Shown: piece after piece, positions 2 to 16,746 of the stretch | How positions within the stretch are numbered: the first letter of the stretch is position 1 | Layout of the letters: the number at the start of each line of letters is the position of its first letter | IMG/VR virus record: IMGVR_UViG_3300032092_000313 | Location: 1-21,042 of that record | Strand: one strand, 5' to 3' | Length of the DNA: 21,042 bases | From: a virus | Translations under genes and position numbers: made by a program | The notes under the pieces: generated by a model | Told to the model about the DNA's origin: nothing | The model's database searches: none | The model's input: only the letters and a program-made list of their open reading frames with translations

Positions 2-205
2 ATTGGTGGCAATCACTACAAGACACAGATCCAGCCTTGGGATGTCTTCCTTGATTGGGAGATGGACCCTTGGCTGTGTAATGTGATTAAGTATGTGCAG
101 CGTCACGCTAAGAAGAACGGCAAAGAGGACTTGGAGAAGGCAAAGCATTATCTTGAGTTTGCTATCGAGAACTACGACAAGATAAAGACTGTGTACTACA
201 AATGA
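2..205 (+). CDS. DUF3310-family phage protein (C-terminal part, cut by window edge)
   Basis: The open frame enters from the left edge and gives 67 residues to a TGA. It begins with GGNHYK, then has QPWDVF, an NVIKYVQRH segment and KKNGKEDLEKAKHYL. This order of motifs (HYK, then Q-P, then N-x-I-K-Y-x-x-R, then K-N-G-x-E-D-L-x-K-A) is the signature of the small DUF3310 phage proteins, which are often labelled 'nucleotide kinase' on thin grounds. I see no Walker motif, so an enzymatic role is not supported here. The N-terminus is missing but is probably short, because the family domain is almost complete. Its stop overlaps the next start (ATGA), so it is translationally coupled to the glycosyltransferase. 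Confidence 0.8.
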   Translation: MGGNHYKTQIQPWDVFLDWEMDPWLCNVIKYVQRHAKKNGKEDLEKAKHYLEFAIENYDKIKTVYYK

Positions 206-1110
206 GTCAGCGTGATCTTGATAGGGCCTACGGCTTACTGAAGGAGGCTGAGTGGAGCAAGGGATTTAACCTGTATGAGTGCCGTGAAGTCCGTAGGGTT
301 AAGTTCTCCCTTGGTATGAAGACACCGCTGTCTAGGTCCATCATTTGGGAACCAGGGTATGATGTCAGAGACCGACACTTGATAGTCACTAACGAGCAAG
401 GCGTTGGTGACACAATCATGTTCTCTCGCTTCATACCTCTGCTCAAAGAGTTGCCAGTCAAGTCTGTTAGTGTCTATATGCAAAAGCCACTGATGAACCT
501 GATAGCCTCTCTGGAGGGCGTGGATGGTGTCCTGACTGATGAGAACTGTCCTGTGCCTGCAATGCGTGTCAAGGTGATGTCTATACCGGCACTGTTGATG
601 CAGTACAACAAGTTCCCTATGAATGACGGCGATCCTGTGTACAAGAGCGATGGCTACTTCAAGTTCAAAGGCATCAGGAAGACTAGCCAGATAGGGTTTT
701 GCTGGTACAGCGATAACGACTCCTGGAATGCTAGTGCCAAAGTAATACCTAGAAACTTAGCAGAAAAGTTCTATAATCAGTTGACAAAGAAGCACAAAGT
801 GGTATCATTACAGATTCAGCCCGATTTTATGCCAGAGCACTTAGATGGTAGAAGTTGGCTTGAAACGGCTAAGAAGATACAGTCATTGAAGGCAGTCGTT
901 ACTGTTGACACTGGTGTAGCACACTTAGCAGGAGCACTTGGGGTAAGGACATTGAACTTAGTTGGCTCTACATCAAAAACGGGGTGGTTTTATCTCCCTG
1001 CTGTTAAAGACAAGACTAATTGGTACGACTCAATGGAACTTATACGTTATGAACCTTATACTAACTGGGAGGCAGGGCTTAATGAAGCACTGAAGAGATT
1101 ATGTCGTTGA
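202..1110 (+). CDS. GT9/GT41-like (TPR-type) glycosyltransferase
   Basis: This is a 302-residue soluble protein with no signal peptide. Residues 18-27 (WSKGFNLYEC) match the G-x-x-x-YE segment that precedes the catalytic part of bacterial TPR-containing glycosyltransferases. NEQGVGD at 64-70 followed by TIMFSRFIPLL is the glycine-rich acceptor-side loop. VTVDTGVAHLAGALG at 233-247 is the sugar-nucleotide-site motif shared with ADP-heptose LPS heptosyltransferases (GT9) and O-GlcNAc-transferase-like GT41 proteins. The tail GWFYLP...NWYDSMELIRY...TNWE follows the usual 'dWRW...WYPsmrLfRQ...gdW' pattern. It most likely transfers a sugar from a nucleotide donor to a protein, glycan or DNA base; the acceptor cannot be read from the sequence. 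No TPR array is present, so the acceptor may be recognised differently from bacterial homologues. The ATG overlaps the upstream stop. Confidence 0.72.
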   Translation: MSQRDLDRAYGLLKEAEWSKGFNLYECREVRRVKFSLGMKTPLSRSIIWEPGYDVRDRHLIVTNEQGVGDTIMFSRFIPLLKELPVKSVSVYMQKPLMNLIASLEGVDGVLTDENCPVPAMRVKVMSIPALLMQYNKFPMNDGDPVYKSDGYFKFKGIRKTSQIGFCWYSDNDSWNASAKVIPRNLAEKFYNQLTKKHKVVSLQIQPDFMPEHLDGRSWLETAKKIQSLKAVVTVDTGVAHLAGALGVRTLNLVGSTSKTGWFYLPAVKDKTNWYDSMELIRYEPYTNWEAGLNEALKRLCR

Positions 1111-3285: not shown

Positions 3286-3311
3286 AGGGCCTCTTTGGAG
3301 GCTCTTTTTTT
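3286..3311 (+). terminator. Rho-independent terminator of the rightward arm
   Basis: An 8-bp stem AGGGCCTC / GAGGCTCT (one G-T wobble) with the loop TTTG is followed by seven T residues. It stands 20 bases after the 40-aa gene and next to the stop of the convergent endolysin gene. On the other strand the hairpin is not followed by a T run, so it should act mainly on rightward transcription. Confidence 0.88.
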
Positions 3312-4736: not shown

Positions 4737-6257
4737 CTATTCCAACGGAGGGTTTAAGGCAGACGAGAGTACTCCACGATAAGCAAGACTTTGTGGGTCT
4801 GGTGCTGTTTGTCCTGATGCAATCCGATTTATAGCCTGTTGTGCTGCCCTGCGACGTAAGACAGATTGTGTATAGTCTGCTAATAAACCAGTCCCAGCCG
4901 CTGTGGTTGCAATGACAGGACTTTGTGAGAAAGTATAAGCACCACCAGCCGCTGCTAATTTAGACCTTAATGGGCTAAACTGTGCTGCAAATGTAAGAAG
5001 CGGATCTAATGCGCCTCCTTTAGCCACAGATTTGATAATGTTTTGCTCTTCTTTATTGAACAATTTCATTTTCTCTTTGCTGGCGGCAATGTTAATAAAT
5101 CCACGTCGAATCAATTCACTATCTGATGCCTTTGGATCTAACGATTTTGCTTCAGCAACATTAAGAGCATCATCTAGTACTTGAGCACGACTAGCATTAC
5201 GCCAGTCTTTTCTAGCGCCTACAATTGTTTTTACAGCCTCGTCAATACCGCCTTTTCCTGCAACAATGTCTTTTGTGGTGAGTCCTGTTATAAAGTCATC
5301 TACTCTGGTTGCAGCTACACCGCCTAACCTTCTAATGTCAGGATCTCTGCTTGTCTTTAAATCGCCTATAATTCCTCTTACTTTGTCTAATGTAGAAAAA
5401 GACATTTGAGGATTCTGTTCAATAATAGAATCAATCTGCGCTAAACGAGAATTGATTTGATTTGCTTGATCTGTGCCAGGAACCATTCTAGCGTCATCTA
5501 AGTCGGACCTAATATCTCCAACCATCTTTTTAACACTAGCATCTTTTAAAGTTATTCCTGCTTGGTCAACTTCATTATATGCATTAGATGCACGTTGTTT
5601 TACTTGTTGAGCCGTGTATAAAGGTATCTTTCTTTGCTCAATAGCAGATATTGTTTTTCCAACACCAGAAGCAGAAAGAGCACCAACACCGACTCCAGCG
5701 ATGGTAGCCGCTAAGTCACTACCAGTTACTTCTTTAACAGCCTCAGCAGCAGGCTGTGCTGTTAATCCAGCAACACCAGCAGCAGGAACTTGTCTCTGTA
5801 GATCCGCAGCCATAGCTGGGATATTTGGAAGCATTTTTGCAGTAGCCGCTGTTCCAGCCATTGCTTGAGTACCTGCCTGTACCGCCCTTTCAACGCCGGT
5901 CTCTGGCTCTGGTAATCCTAACGCCGTCAACCCTTTTGCTTGCTCTTGATAAAAGGAAGGTAAACGGCTTTGAGAACCGACAGCCTCAGACGCTAAATTA
6001 TAGGCACCTCTACCAGCCTCTAAAACAGCCGTAGCAGGGGCTGTAAAGGCTTCATAGCCTGCCCTAGCAGTAAGGCCTAGTTGCCTAAATATTTCCTGAC
6101 CTATTGACCGCTTTGGCTCTTCTTTAGCCGGCTGTGCAGGTGCAGGTTGCCCAGGAGCAGAAACTCCTAAACTACTCTGAATTTTTGCTATGGCCTGCTC
6201 ATTAGATAAACCATCAGGCAAACTATAGTACTTACCTTCGTATTGATATACAGGCAT
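4737..6257 (-). CDS. Putative internal virion / DNA-ejection protein, 506 aa
   Basis: The N-terminus MPVYQYEGKYYSLPDGLSNE with the following QAIAKIQSSLG resembles a short motif found at the start of large virion proteins in many podoviruses. A Pro/Ala linker follows (about 33-48), and then a long Ala-rich helical body with small hydrophobic Gly/Ala stretches such as TIAGVGVGALSASGVGK and, near the C-terminus, VIATTAAGTGLLADYTQ. No lysozyme, transglycosylase or protease motif is visible. Position after two other Ala/Gln-rich proteins and before lysis genes matches the T7 gp14-gp15-gp16 or P22 gp7-gp20-gp16 ejection block. AGGAA lies before the ATG. The role is inferred from composition and position. 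Confidence 0.62.
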   Translation of the reverse strand: MPVYQYEGKYYSLPDGLSNEQAIAKIQSSLGVSAPGQPAPAQPAKEEPKRSIGQEIFRQLGLTARAGYEAFTAPATAVLEAGRGAYNLASEAVGSQSRLPSFYQEQAKGLTALGLPEPETGVERAVQAGTQAMAGTAATAKMLPNIPAMAADLQRQVPAAGVAGLTAQPAAEAVKEVTGSDLAATIAGVGVGALSASGVGKTISAIEQRKIPLYTAQQVKQRASNAYNEVDQAGITLKDASVKKMVGDIRSDLDDARMVPGTDQANQINSRLAQIDSIIEQNPQMSFSTLDKVRGIIGDLKTSRDPDIRRLGGVAATRVDDFITGLTTKDIVAGKGGIDEAVKTIVGARKDWRNASRAQVLDDALNVAEAKSLDPKASDSELIRRGFINIAASKEKMKLFNKEEQNIIKSVAKGGALDPLLTFAAQFSPLRSKLAAAGGAYTFSQSPVIATTAAGTGLLADYTQSVLRRRAAQQAINRIASGQTAPDPQSLAYRGVLSSALNPPLE

Positions 6258-6265
6258 TTTTATTC

Positions 6266-7414
6266 CTATTTTAAGATAATTGGATTTTCCATAGAACCAA
6301 GAGGGCTACCAGAAGTTCCAAAGTAACTTTCAACACCTTGTGATTTACGCCGAGAATCTATTCTTGTTTGAACACGACCTTTTGCTTTTTCAACGGCTTC
6401 GTTATACCGTTTAAGAGCCTCTAAAGTTGCTTGTGTATCGTTTCGTCCAAATGCGGCAATTAGGGCATTAGCAAAACGAAGAACGTCTTTATCTGTTTGG
6501 ACACCCTTTTCAGCACTAACCTGTAAGTTTACTGCGGTATCAACGGCAGATTTAAGCGCCTCGTATGCACGACTTTCCTCAGTTGAATTACCAGATAAGT
6601 TCTGAGCGGCATATTTTAAGTTCTTTGCTGGCCCTAACTCTAGTTTTCGAGCACCTTTAGAATCTGCTGTAAGATTTAGTATTGACGGTTTTAATGCCTC
6701 TGATTGAGCAGTAAAACTATCAATTGTTTCTAGGTCTTTTAATTCATCTTTCTGCAAACCAGCAGGCAACATCGATGCTTTTTGTGCCCTTAGTGCGGCT
6801 GTTTGTGCCTTCTGAAGACGAACATTTTCAGCGTTTTGTAGAACTTGTAAAATCTTATCTGGAGACCCATACTTTGTTACAACATTGATAATATCTTTTT
6901 CTGTTGCATTAGGACCCAAAGCAGCTAACTCTGTTCTTAACTTCTCTTCTTGTGCTGCACTAAACTCTGCTTTTTTAATTCTTGCCTCAATCTCACCAGC
7001 CTGTGCCTTTCGACCTGCTGTTAAGGACTCTTCAGATTCCAACTTAGCAGCTTGTTGAGCCGCCTGTTGAGCTAAGGTAGTTACACCTAACTTAGCCGCC
7101 GAAGAAGACAACCTCTTAAAGAATGCCGGTGAAGAAGCATCACCGCCTGAAAGTTCTAAGGCTTCTTGGTAGGCTTGTTGACCCAACTGAGCCTGCTGTA
7201 GTCTTGGGTCCTGTACTGGGGCATTACCAAATAAACTACCAACAACACCGCCTAGGGCACCGCCTAACTGCTGACCAGCCCTAGCAGCGCCAAGCATTGT
7301 AACCTGCTGTGGAGTTAACTTAGCCTGCTCTAGTAATCCACGCTCACGTTCAGCCTCGATAGCCTGCTGTATCAACTGAGGGCTATATGAACCAAATAAT
7401 GTTTGCTCTGCCAT
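6266..7414 (-). CDS. Putative internal virion protein, Ala/Gln-rich, 382 aa
   Basis: The sequence is mostly helical and rich in Ala, Gln, Leu, Glu and Lys. A short Gly-rich hydrophobic stretch, AGQQLGGALGGVVGSLFGNA, lies near residues 46-66, flanked by Gln-rich helices (AQQAAQQAAKLESEESL). The C-terminal half has a longer helical bundle (SAVDTAVNLQVSAEKGVQTD, then NEAVEKAKGRVQTR). No enzyme motif is seen. It is the middle gene of three adjacent leftward genes of similar composition, with a good ribosome binding site (AAAGGAAA). A structural role in the particle core or in the ejected tube is likely but unproven. Confidence 0.6.
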   Translation of the reverse strand: MAEQTLFGSYSPQLIQQAIEAERERGLLEQAKLTPQQVTMLGAARAGQQLGGALGGVVGSLFGNAPVQDPRLQQAQLGQQAYQEALELSGGDASSPAFFKRLSSSAAKLGVTTLAQQAAQQAAKLESEESLTAGRKAQAGEIEARIKKAEFSAAQEEKLRTELAALGPNATEKDIINVVTKYGSPDKILQVLQNAENVRLQKAQTAALRAQKASMLPAGLQKDELKDLETIDSFTAQSEALKPSILNLTADSKGARKLELGPAKNLKYAAQNLSGNSTEESRAYEALKSAVDTAVNLQVSAEKGVQTDKDVLRFANALIAAFGRNDTQATLEALKRYNEAVEKAKGRVQTRIDSRRKSQGVESYFGTSGSPLGSMENPIILK

Positions 7415-7425
7415 TTATATTTCCT

Positions 7426-8481
7426 TTACCTAGGGTCGTAACCGCCACTCATATCTTCAAAGCCTGAAGAACTTCCGTAATAACCGCCTGATGTATCAAT
7501 GTCAGGATTATAAGCAAAACCGCTACCGCTACCTGTTCCCATTGGATAGTATGCAGATGCCGTAGATTGTGGTGCTGGTGCTTGTTTCTGACCAAACCCA
7601 AGATTCTTAAAGAAACTGTTCATTAGGTTCTGGCCTGCTAACTGATTAGCGGCAATCTGCTGTTGTCTGCCACCAAGTTGAGTAGATGCCGCAGCCATTC
7701 CTCCCTGTAACAGAGCTTGACCAGCCTGTGCGCCAGCAGTGGCTGATCTACCGCCCAACTGAGCACCGATGTCCAGAGGCTGTAGTGCTGCCTGCTCAAG
7801 CAATTGAGACACACCAAACTGAGTCTGGAACGGTGCCAACGCTGATGTCTGTAATCTACCGGCTTCACCAAACAATCCAGTGCCGTAAGCAATACGGTCC
7901 CTAGCAGCCTGCTCTGCCTGTGCAGCTAGTTGAAGGTCTTGTGTACGTCTTGCTGTAGCCAACGCAGCCAACTCAGGCTGACCAATGTCACCAATGTTGA
8001 GGCCTGCACGACCACGACCAAACACAGAAGCCCCTAATCTTGCCTCTTCACGTTGACGAACAGGTTCAATCATTGCATACTGTTCTTGCAGATACTTGTT
8101 CCGGGCCTGTTCTGGTGTCTGTGCAAGGTACTGTTGACCTAGACCAAACAATGTCTCAGAAGGCGCTACAGCACGTTCAGCAAGCCCTAGACTGTCTCCA
8201 TAGAGTGCAGATAGCCTTTGTTGAAGTGCCTGTACCTCTGGCGATGCAGCATAACTAGCGCCGCTAAGACGGCCTTCAGGACCATACTGGAACTGTGATT
8301 GACCAAACCTAGTAGAGATCCCTACAGGCCGAAAGCGAGCCTCTTCAGCCGCTATTCGTGCAGCTTCCAACTGAGCCTGAGCCGCTTCTCTACTCGCAGC
8401 AGCTTGCTGTTTAGCCGCTGATCTAGAGGCACTTGCCCCTATTAAACTACTACCTATCGCTGCTGCAGCCATGAAAGGCAT
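7426..8481 (-). CDS. Putative internal virion protein (gp14/gp7-like), 351 aa
   Basis: The N-terminus MPFMAAAAIGSSLIGASASR is a small hydrophobic Ala/Gly segment followed by an alanine-rich amphipathic helix (QQAAASREAAQAQLEAARIA), the usual opening of small ejection proteins that insert in the host envelope. The body has repeated short helices and Gly-rich turns (GASVFGRGRAGLNIGDIG). The C-terminal 55 residues are low complexity and rich in Ser, Gly and Tyr (YYPMGTGSGSGFAYNPD, GGYYGSSSGFEDMSGGYDPR), probably disordered. AAGGAG precedes the ATG. I recall this N-terminal arrangement from marine podovirus structural proteins. Function is inferred from composition and position. Confidence 0.65.
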   Translation of the reverse strand: MPFMAAAAIGSSLIGASASRSAAKQQAAASREAAQAQLEAARIAAEEARFRPVGISTRFGQSQFQYGPEGRLSGASYAASPEVQALQQRLSALYGDSLGLAERAVAPSETLFGLGQQYLAQTPEQARNKYLQEQYAMIEPVRQREEARLGASVFGRGRAGLNIGDIGQPELAALATARRTQDLQLAAQAEQAARDRIAYGTGLFGEAGRLQTSALAPFQTQFGVSQLLEQAALQPLDIGAQLGGRSATAGAQAGQALLQGGMAAASTQLGGRQQQIAANQLAGQNLMNSFFKNLGFGQKQAPAPQSTASAYYPMGTGSGSGFAYNPDIDTSGGYYGSSSGFEDMSGGYDPR

Positions 8482-13179: not shown

Positions 13180-13752
13180 CTATCTCCACTTTGGTCCTTC
13201 CATCCAGGCTACTAGCGAGTGTCTAGTGCCTTTGGTGACTGGGTTTACCTTATGAACTACGAAGGAAGGAAACACTAAAACAGTTCCTTGTGTTCTTAGG
13301 TGCTCTTGTTTGGGGCTACCGAGATGTAACGGCTGCATCTCAAACTCACCGCCTTCATACTCTTCTGGGCTAGACAGTTGGCACACCAGAGATAACTTCC
13401 TGTGTACTTGTCTACCATCATCCCAATTTACATCATTGTGCCAATTATAATAACCTTGGTCTTCTGCGTTGTACTCTGTAAACTGAATCTCGTTTAAGTG
13501 CCACAACTCAGATCCAAAGGCATTATGATTAGAAACATGAAACAGATTAGTTAGTTCATGGTACAGCCAACCAAGATCTTTATTGTCTCTAGTAATCCAC
13601 CTAACCTTACTTCTACGGATCTTGGTGTCTACGTTAGAGCCTTGGAAACCAACTATTGCATCCTGCGGTTCTATCTCTTTTGCCTGCTCTACTATAGTGC
13701 TACAAAGTTCTTTAGTGTACCTCTGTTGCCACATCTGCCACATTGCATTCAA
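13180..13752 (-). CDS. 2-oxoglutarate/Fe(II) dioxygenase, prolyl-4-hydroxylase type
   Basis: The 190-aa enzyme would use 2-oxoglutarate, O2 and Fe(II) to hydroxylate a protein side chain or similar substrate. The metal triad is visible: H105 and D107 in YYNWHNDVNW, and H167 in FPSFVVHKV. R177 in TKGTRHSLVAW binds the 2-oxoglutarate carboxylate. RKLSLVCQLSSPEEYEGGEF and GTVLVFPSF are the double-stranded beta-helix strands typical of prolyl 4-hydroxylases and P4H-like phage enzymes. Start: TTG at 13750-13752 is chosen because an AAAGGAAA sequence lies six bases upstream; the in-frame ATG at 13741-13743 would be too far (15 bases) and shortens the protein by three residues. It reads in the same direction as the collagen-like fibre gene, about 3.4 kb downstream of it; a role in hydroxylating that fibre is inference. 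Confidence 0.85.
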   Translation of the reverse strand: MNAMWQMWQQRYTKELCSTIVEQAKEIEPQDAIVGFQGSNVDTKIRRSKVRWITRDNKDLGWLYHELTNLFHVSNHNAFGSELWHLNEIQFTEYNAEDQGYYNWHNDVNWDDGRQVHRKLSLVCQLSSPEEYEGGEFEMQPLHLGSPKQEHLRTQGTVLVFPSFVVHKVNPVTKGTRHSLVAWMEGPKWR

Positions 13753-14289: not shown

Positions 14290-16746
14290 CTATCGGGCGA
14301 GGGAGTATTTAAACGGCGATTCGGCAAAGGCTGCATAAATTACCGTTCCTGAATTAGATGCTGAACTTGTAGAACGAATTTTAAAACCGTTTGACAAAGC
14401 ATCGCAAAGGTTTGCATAGTCACCAGTAGTGCCTTCTGCATTTGAATAGTTTGGAAACAAAACATTTCCCATTACATTATAAGTAGACCTTGCGGTATCC
14501 ACTATTTCCCACGCTGATACACCATCAGACCTCTTAAACATAATCCACCTTGGCCTAAACCCTGTGTACACAAAAGGCCCGTCCGTAGAACCATTGCCCG
14601 TGTAACTACCAAAGGCAGAATAGCCAGCCACGGCATCAAAACAATATGCTACATAGGTAACACCACTTGCATTTGCTCTATCAGATGATCCAAGCGTAAT
14701 TAGTGTGCTAGACGGAGCAGTACCGTTCCATGTTGTAAAGTTGGTTGAATCTTGTCCCGCAGTTGAGTTTAGTGACAATGTGTATGAGGCGCTTGGAAGA
14801 TTTCTGTTGTAAATAATCCAATCTTCGCCGCTTGATGACCTTTGCTTTGCAATCACCATATCAGGTGCTACACCAAGACCATGTCCAACTGTTGCGCCAG
14901 CAGAACCGTTGCCCGTATAAGTAACAATCGAGAACCCGCTAGTAGTGCTTGCGCTGACTGTGCTGGTAATAGAGCCATCCGTGTTAGAGGAACCTGTGCC
15001 ATTAGCTCTCCATAGCCAAGCAACGTGGGTTGCTCCTGTATTTCCATTCCAGACACCAGAGCCAGATCCACTACCAACTAACGTAAAACCATCTGAATCA
15101 AAACTTTCTACACCGTTGACATTGGTTGCTTCTGCTCCAGTGGTGTCAGAATAAAGTTCTTTTGTAACACCACGCACTGCATCAACTAATACGTTACTAT
15201 CCGCAGCAGAACGCTTTTTGCCCCAAATCAAACTTGGTTGAAAACCTACTCCAGTAAGAACATTTCTTGCTCCAGTAGCAGTCCAAGTTTTTACATTAAA
15301 ATAATCATTCGCCTGTGTCGTGCTAGTAGCACCGATAGTCGGCGTAGGCAGATTCTGTGTGCAGAGTGCTTTGAAGCCAGAGGGGGCGGTGTAGGCAAAG
15401 GCTCTTTGACCGAAGTTCCAAGCAGTTACAGCACCGTTCTGTGTAGCCTCTGGCATCCATGAACCAGTCAAACCAGTATAGGCAGCATTAGTGCCAGCAA
15501 CTGGGTCACCAGACGCTTGGAAGGTTCCATTCTTAGACCAGTACACTTTACCGTTATCAAGGTCTAAAGCACACCCAATTACATCGCCGTTGGTGTAGGT
15601 ATTGCCGTAACTTGCGTTTGTGTTTTCGTTGTATTTAAGTCCAGTAGTGGCGTAACTTCTCGAACCAGACCCAGCCTGCCAAGCAAGTTTATTAGAAGAA
15701 CTTGGTGTGATTGACGTAATTGCAGTCCAAACTGTATTTGACCCAGAAGAGTGTCCCGAAACAACAGTCATCTCCCAGTACCATTTACCGCTTGATACAG
15801 AGATTGTGCTTCCCATTGCGGCATCGTTACTAACAGAAAAGTCTAGGTTCCCATTAGCAGAAGAGCCAGCCGCCGCATAAGTAGCCGGTTCGTCAAGCGG
15901 ATTCAGCGTAGCATAGTTGCCTCTGACGGTACCACCAACACCAGTATCGGTTCCGTAGGATGTGGGCGAATCTACTAAGGAGTCATTGCCAGCACCAGCG
16001 GTTACAGAGAAGTTATTAGGTGTCCAGTTGTTACCGTTGCCTGAACTGTCCTTGCCTAGTGTTGCAGCAGTGGTGTTGCTGTTGTCAGCAAACTTGAGGT
16101 AAAAGCCGTTAGTGCCGTATGTGCCTGTGTAGGCTTTAGGCTTCCATACACCTGTGTTGGTATCTGTTTCACCAAAGTCTGATGGGGTTAGGGCTTGACC
16201 GTCTATGTTGTAAAACTCGGTCAGATACATTCCCGCATAAGAATCAGGGGTTGTACTTGAACCAATCCTATGAACGTTAGCGCCATTCCAATCTGTATTT
16301 AAGTTTTGAGTTGGATAAGTAGCCGTGCCAAACGCAGTAATTTGAGAGCCGTTTACATATACTTTTACACGATTAGTGCTTGTTGCTTGGGTTGTATCAA
16401 TGGCAATGACAAAGTGATACCAAGCAGAAGGGTCACGAAATAACTGTGTCGTTTCTATTGTGAACTGGGTAGCACTTCCATCAATATGCCTGATATTTAA
16501 TTTTCCACCATTAAAAGAAATAGGTGTTCTATCAGTTGATGAGTTTGTGCTTGCCTCTGCAATATAATGGTCAAAGTTACCTGTTGACGTTTTGAACCAA
16601 AAAGATAAAGTCCAAGTTTGCTTATTACCAGCAGATGCTGGAGTTCTACTTAGAGAGGCCGAGTCTGCGCTATTGAACCTGAGACTGCGTTCAATCTGAT
16701 AGCCGCCATTGGTGGCAGAGCCAAAGCCAGTAGGTAGAACAGCCAT
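14290..16746 (-). CDS. Large modular adhesin (LamG + SPRY + triplicated C-terminal repeat), 818 aa
   Basis: Residues about 20-190 form a laminin-G/concanavalin domain (SLRFNSADSASLSRTP, WTLSFWFKT, WYHFVIAID, VKVYVNGSQI). Residues about 318-450 form a SPRY domain (GKWYWEMTVVSG, then GDVIGCALDLDNGKVYWSKN). The rest carries three repeats of about 105 residues starting near 487, 605 and 711. Each has a strand with T-x-x-G or YTGNG, then G(V/L/F)-x-P-x-x-(I/V)-(I/M)-x-K(K/Q/R)R; the set is of the DUF7483-like type seen in marine phages. These are carbohydrate- and protein-binding folds, so a host-surface adhesin or fibre tip is likely. A chaperone-like gene follows. Length and repeats suggest recombination between modules. 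Confidence 0.8.
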   Translation of the reverse strand: MAVLPTGFGSATNGGYQIERSLRFNSADSASLSRTPASAGNKQTWTLSFWFKTSTGNFDHYIAEASTNSSTDRTPISFNGGKLNIRHIDGSATQFTIETTQLFRDPSAWYHFVIAIDTTQATSTNRVKVYVNGSQITAFGTATYPTQNLNTDWNGANVHRIGSSTTPDSYAGMYLTEFYNIDGQALTPSDFGETDTNTGVWKPKAYTGTYGTNGFYLKFADNSNTTAATLGKDSSGNGNNWTPNNFSVTAGAGNDSLVDSPTSYGTDTGVGGTVRGNYATLNPLDEPATYAAAGSSANGNLDFSVSNDAAMGSTISVSSGKWYWEMTVVSGHSSGSNTVWTAITSITPSSSNKLAWQAGSGSRSYATTGLKYNENTNASYGNTYTNGDVIGCALDLDNGKVYWSKNGTFQASGDPVAGTNAAYTGLTGSWMPEATQNGAVTAWNFGQRAFAYTAPSGFKALCTQNLPTPTIGATSTTQANDYFNVKTWTATGARNVLTGVGFQPSLIWGKKRSAADSNVLVDAVRGVTKELYSDTTGAEATNVNGVESFDSDGFTLVGSGSGSGVWNGNTGATHVAWLWRANGTGSSNTDGSITSTVSASTTSGFSIVTYTGNGSAGATVGHGLGVAPDMVIAKQRSSSGEDWIIYNRNLPSASYTLSLNSTAGQDSTNFTTWNGTAPSSTLITLGSSDRANASGVTYVAYCFDAVAGYSAFGSYTGNGSTDGPFVYTGFRPRWIMFKRSDGVSAWEIVDTARSTYNVMGNVLFPNYSNAEGTTGDYANLCDALSNGFKIRSTSSASNSGTVIYAAFAESPFKYSLAR

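Follow-up and report, generated by a model that had tools for sequence, protein, structure and literature searches.

A gene upstream of a ribonucleotide reductase (RNR) gene in the window, the whole 21042-nt stretch of viral DNA that was analysed, was predicted to encode a glycosyltransferase (GT) of the GT9 superfamily, and among related phage contigs it was mostly found together with a collagen-like fibre of the Gly-X-Thr type. The link between the GT and a Thr-bearing fibre in this phage group is suggestive, and the explanation preferred here, tentatively and at somewhat less than an even chance, is that the GT9-type enzyme glycosylates Thr residues of the fibre, possibly beside prolyl hydroxylation. 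The features concerned are given in Table 1.

Table 1. Predicted features of the window that bear on the GT and its candidate acceptor
Feature	Coordinates	Strand	Basis or remark
DUF3310 protein, upstream of GT, truncated at its 5' end by the window edge	2..205	+	PF11753, E 2.6e-11; synteny
GT9-superfamily TPR-less glycosyltransferase (GT), 302 aa	202..1110	+	ATG start, TGA stop; Pfam, homologues, model
Small acidic ORF, ~54 aa	1101..1264	+	Begins within the 3' end of GT, reaches into the RNR start
Class II-like (adenosylcobalamin-type) RNR, 629 aa	1252..3141	+	phrog_367, E 1e-189
2OG-Fe(II) oxygenase, prolyl-hydroxylase fold	13180..13752	-	PF13640, E 2.3e-15; fold matches; co-occurrence
Collagen-like fibre, proposed acceptor, 323 aa	17168..18139	-	PF01391, E 6.7e-11; phage tail fibre PHROGs

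The GT ORF was confirmed, by comparison with its relatives, as a real gene under purifying selection. In IMG/VR, 24 loci were found to carry the GT at 92-98% identity; the 22 complete copies have no internal stop, and dN/dS between the GT and its near relatives was 0.07-0.13 (0.08-0.19 for the adjacent RNR gene), indicating a gene that is being maintained rather than a chance ORF. The RNR scored 332.8 bits against TIGR02505, slightly below the cut-off of that model. The ATG of the GT overlaps the stop codon of the DUF3310 gene (AAATGAG at 200-206), the ATG of the next small ORF lies inside the 3' end of the GT gene, and from this arrangement the GT is translationally coupled with DUF3310, the small ORF and RNR. 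It is therefore part of a cluster of nucleotide-metabolism type and not of a fibre operon. The small ORF, which links the GT to RNR, has 45-100% identity in most relatives and is kept with or without the GT. A terminator-like hairpin (3286-3305) separates the plus-strand GT/RNR block from the minus-strand lysis and virion block, and a promoter scan gave a signal no higher than in shuffled sequences. The GT had no match at 1e-5 in GenBank phages, where six weak matches were found (E 4e-5 to 0.2), and a pattern search of genome contigs returned 45 pattern matches, none of them a relative, so that no host or prophage was identified.

A first-pass annotation of this DNA had described the product as a GT9/GT41-like glycosyltransferase with motifs of TPR-glycosyltransferase type and no TPR array. 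The quoted motifs (NEQGVGD, VDTGVAHLAGALG and NWYDSMELIRY) were all found in the GT ORF, and in an alignment of 67 viral sequences, comprising the window GT and 66 viral homologues, the core residues were near-fixed (D70, R76, K/R180, H241 and W274-Y275 in 67/67, and D236 in 66/67), position 180 being K in the window protein and R in many relatives. Pfam Glyco_transf_9 (PF01075) matched the GT with 30.2 bits (cut-off 22; E 3.7e-7), the match being limited to the C-terminal donor motif at residues 221-262 (profile positions 176-217 of 247). PHROGs gave no match for the GT, and phmmer against the PDB gave chance matches only. The AlphaFold2 model has a GT-B fold (pLDDT 92.4, pTM 0.91) preceded by just two helices (residues 3-14 and 18-28), in agreement with the reported lack of a TPR array. 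The best solved matches to this model were 3tov (a GT9 enzyme), TibC, WaaC and WaaF (E 7e-6 to 1e-4; TM ~0.5), and hhalign against E. coli WaaC, WaaF and WaaQ aligned the DTG motif. The catalytic Asp, the donor-phosphate Lys and the (D)(T/S)G..H donor motif of GT9 enzymes were all found, D70 and K180 corresponding to WaaC D13 and K192 by motif order only.

The structure comparison that the annotation had proposed thus pointed to an enzyme of heptosyltransferase type and not to OGT or HMW1C, structures of which were not among the 50 best PDB fold matches. Only the GT9 half of the earlier assignment was retained; membership of GT41/OGT was rejected, as no GT41 Pfam family was matched at E <= 1 and there is no N-terminal TPR superhelix. 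The BAHT (TibC/Aah) are defined by a four-Cys iron finger (PMC4358343), and membership of this family was also rejected, as the GT has no such finger and a helical N-terminus instead of the N-terminal beta-barrel. Its four Cys residues (27, 116, 167 and 301) are isolated, with no CxxC pair.

Homology to the TPR-glycosyltransferases of Azospirillum and others spans the whole catalytic module (27-31% identity over 92-100% of the query). Judged by sequence and model, the GT is a soluble, presumably catalytic GT-B enzyme of the GT9 superfamily that corresponds to the catalytic module of the TPR-glycosyltransferases with one helical hairpin, and the enzyme itself is of a known kind. As this fold serves envelope glycans (WaaC) as well as repetitive proteins (TibC), the acceptor is not chosen by sequence alone. 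On an Azospirillum ramasamyi plasmid (locus L026, 3518-7216), a TPR-GT homologue was located near pseB, an aminotransferase gene and an aspartyl/asparaginyl beta-hydroxylase gene, so that a GT is again found near a hydroxylase.

Relatives anchored on the RNR gene were found to share the order DUF3310 - small ORF - RNR whether the GT is present or absent, and many of them have no GT at this site. Where the site is occupied, the GT alleles are 34, 39, 58-61, 73 or 92-98% identical to the window GT, making the GT, on gene order, an optional cargo gene. The 73% allele (locus L039, 198-1103) is flanked by neighbours of 93-100% identity, and its dS relative to the window is 1.1, compared with 0.24 for RNR, a sign of an apparent allele replacement at the GT site. 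Among the contigs, the virion genes g6266 and g7426 and a large tail protein gene (minus strand of the window, 4737-8481 and 14290-16746) show 25-92%, 38-88% and 41-100% identity, respectively, and differ sharply whether or not the RNR of the contigs is >90% identical, which suggests modular exchange of tail genes.

The fibre gene of the window encodes 20 GPT and 32 GXT triplets. Co-occurrence was counted in 28 contigs readable both at the GT site and in the fibre region, of which 16 carry the GT and 12 do not. A Gly-X-Thr collagen-like fibre was found in 14/16 contigs with the GT and in 1/12 without it. In the 14, the fibre is of GPT type (G000, G001, G002, G003, G014, G070, G096 and G099) or of GAT type (G081, G084, G085, G086, G090 and G098). 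The two exceptions, in which a GT is present without a collagen, are G015 and G100, both with the GT39 allele. Of the contigs lacking the GT, only G021 carries a GAT fibre; in three others the collagen is short and charged, with Thr at the Y position no more than once, and no collagen is present in the rest. Fisher's test gave p 5.4e-5 for the raw count over the 28 contigs and 0.03 within the clade with RNR of at least 78%. However, in RNR and major capsid protein trees, made before G100 joined the contig set, the GT and fibre traits change 3-5 times, leaving at most three well-supported independent contrasts, nearly all in one direction, and the association is therefore not significant once relatedness is respected.

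The RNR and capsid trees conflict in the placement of G085, G086 and G090, indicating that modules recombine while the GT and the Thr-bearing fibre mostly stay together. The link is common to two GT alleles (the window type and the 34% type) and to capsid backgrounds of 55-100% identity, and, being seen with GAT as well as GPT fibres, it goes with Thr rather than Pro. The narrower proposal, in which the GT would belong to GPT fibres alone, was rejected because some contigs with the GT have GAT fibres. The broader one, in which the GT would accompany collagens of any kind, was also rejected, as no collagen was present in any flank fetched for distant GT homologues; any role at the fibre would therefore belong to this phage group.

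The predicted minus-strand oxygenase has invariant residues of an HxD...H iron site and a 2OG-binding Arg (H105, D107, H167 and R177), and its model (pLDDT 78) matched Pseudomonas P4H, human PHD2 and PBCV-1 vCPH (E 2e-9 to 1e-7) and also PiuC-type oxygenases. A GPT collagen was found at each oxygenase locus that extended 4 kb or more towards the fibre, down to an oxygenase identity of 48%, and contigs with GAT, charged or no collagen have no oxygenase wherever the site was covered. In contigs with a capsid protein of only 53-58% identity, identity of the oxygenase is 93-94%. From these distributions the oxygenase appears to follow Pro at X and the GT mostly Thr at Y, with the oxygenase tracking the fibre more tightly than the GT does. 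The two genes are not a single cassette, as contigs with the GT and a GAT fibre have no oxygenase and G027 has a diverged oxygenase and no GT. Separately, two adjacent 2OG oxygenase genes were found just downstream of the tail fibres in the marine cyanomyophages S-PRM1, S-CAM9 and S-8S53 (L432, L433 and L434), in which the fibres have 55-59 collagen triplets, including GPT blocks, and the genes are recorded as 'hypothetical' or 'tail fiber'. No 2OG gene was present beside such a fibre in the stretch read of ACG-2014a and S-SCSM1.

In the preferred explanation, the GT would use a nucleotide-activated sugar as donor, either ADP-heptose or another one from the host, and pass the sugar on to a protein of the phage virion, the likeliest acceptor being Y-position Thr of the collagen-like fibre. 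D70 would act as the base, with K180 and D236 holding the donor, and glycosylation of the Thr hydroxyls would take place in the cytoplasm, either ahead of trimer folding or in the course of it. In GPT-type fibres the oxygenase may hydroxylate X-position Pro of the same repeats, and the benefit could be stability of the triple helix or surface masking. The first-pass annotation had raised fibre Thr as an acceptor by analogy with Thr glycosylation of collagen-like repeats in Bacillus BclA and in Riftia cuticle collagen. What speaks for it is the intact gene, the confident GT-B model, the conserved D70, K/R180, D236 and H241, and the co-occurrence, which is real but not decisive. By analogy, TibC, with the same type of fold, glycosylates a repetitive protein, although on Ser and not on Thr (PMC4358343). 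As the oxygenase tracks Pro of the same fibre, enzymatic modification of the fibre is plausible in this group. Against it stand the small number of independent contrasts (about three at most), the exceptions G015, G100 and G021, the position of the GT in a nucleotide-metabolism cluster away from the fibre gene, and the distant homologues with no collagen in the fetched flanks. The fuller proposal of a phage-made modified collagen, in which the oxygenase hydroxylates X-position Pro and the GT glycosylates Y-position Thr of GPT triplets, each enzyme coming and going with its target residue, is rather doubtful.

The main rival, itself somewhat unlikely, is that during infection the GT modifies a glycan of the host cell envelope (LPS core, O-chain or capsule), for instance in blocking superinfection or in keeping progeny off receptor fragments, with the diversity of alleles reflecting the diversity of host surfaces. 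Phage GTs are commonly interpreted in this way (PMC7029224), and the WaaC-like fold, the early-type gene cluster, and the optional nature of the gene, whose alleles at this site are strongly diverged and include the apparent swap in L039, are all consistent with it. However, no membrane segment and no neighbouring LPS gene was seen, and decoration of the envelope does not predict the Gly-X-Thr association unless fibre and surface types change together, which is possible as both concern adsorption. It is less probable that the acceptor is another protein, for instance one of the host or a tail or capsid protein rich in Thr/Ser, with an indirect link to collagen type. The two GT39 carriers that have no collagen fit such an acceptor (the fibre-region proteins of G015 are 14-19% Thr), as do TPR-GT relatives that adjoin structural genes in other phages, but the Gly-X-Thr link of the remaining alleles would be left unexplained.

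Glycosylation of phage DNA bases or of a nucleotide, which the first-pass annotation had kept in view, is now highly improbable. The coupling of the GT with the RNR and DUF3310 genes would favour it, but relatives with no GT retain the same RNR cluster, and the fold matches transferases for protein and LPS and not DNA glucosyltransferases. In the near-complete relative G001, a scan of ORFs that took in some of the smaller ones revealed no base-hydroxymethylating, hypermodification or nucleotide-sugar enzyme; the scanned ORFs upstream of the GT encode a polymerase, a primase/helicase, exonucleases and a DNA methyltransferase. There is equally little reason to regard the GT as what is left of a TPR-glycosyltransferase after decay or loss of catalysis, as the short protein and the confined Pfam match might suggest, given the low dN/dS and the invariance of the putative active-site residues.

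In a 2012 study of phage-borne collagens, bacteria and viruses were stated to lack the prolyl hydroxylases by which animal collagen is stabilised (PMC3368898), and viral prolyl hydroxylases were described as being of cryptic use in a survey of viruses from the Baltic Sea (PMC9301287). Here, an oxygenase of prolyl-hydroxylase fold and a GT each track their own candidate residue in phage collagen-like fibres. In the literature on phage collagen with a hydroxylase or GT, of which coverage was incomplete, no report of such a fibre-modification set was found, and the combination of a GT with a collagen-tracking oxygenase may, on these sequences, be new. If the proposal is true, phages would possess a collagen modification of their own, which could explain how short phage collagens keep folded or masked, and they would offer compact enzymes with which modified collagen could be produced in bacteria.

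The closest entry to the window GT is A0A6J5PAN8 from an uncultured Caudovirales phage (BFVD/UniProt), which, at 302 aa, 97% identity and TM 0.97, is the same gene; it carries the automatic name 'Glycosyl transferase, family 9', and the entry gives no function or link to a fibre. The TPR-containing glycosyltransferases of bacteria (Azospirillum and Caballeronia) and of phages (S-SRM01 and BUCT-ZZ01) have a homologous catalytic module (21-31% identity) but include TPR arrays in a protein of 450-620 aa, whereas the window GT retains one helical hairpin; most of the bacterial and phage relatives in that identity range are of this TPR-containing kind. The founding GT9 enzymes act on LPS. One of these relatives, the LPS heptosyltransferase I WaaC, shares the GT-B fold and DTG motif with the window GT, although identity in the fold alignment is ~12% (TM ~0.5). 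TibC, a bacterial autotransporter heptosyltransferase, is the second-best solved fold match, and differs in having the iron finger and N-terminal beta-barrel. For the oxygenase, the PBCV-1 viral collagen prolyl hydroxylase (5c5t) is a fold relative (E 5.6e-9). PBCV-1 is a virus of algae, and in the phage fibre, the putative substrate of the phage oxygenase, Pro is mainly at the X position. The phage oxygenase co-occurs with this collagen-like protein.
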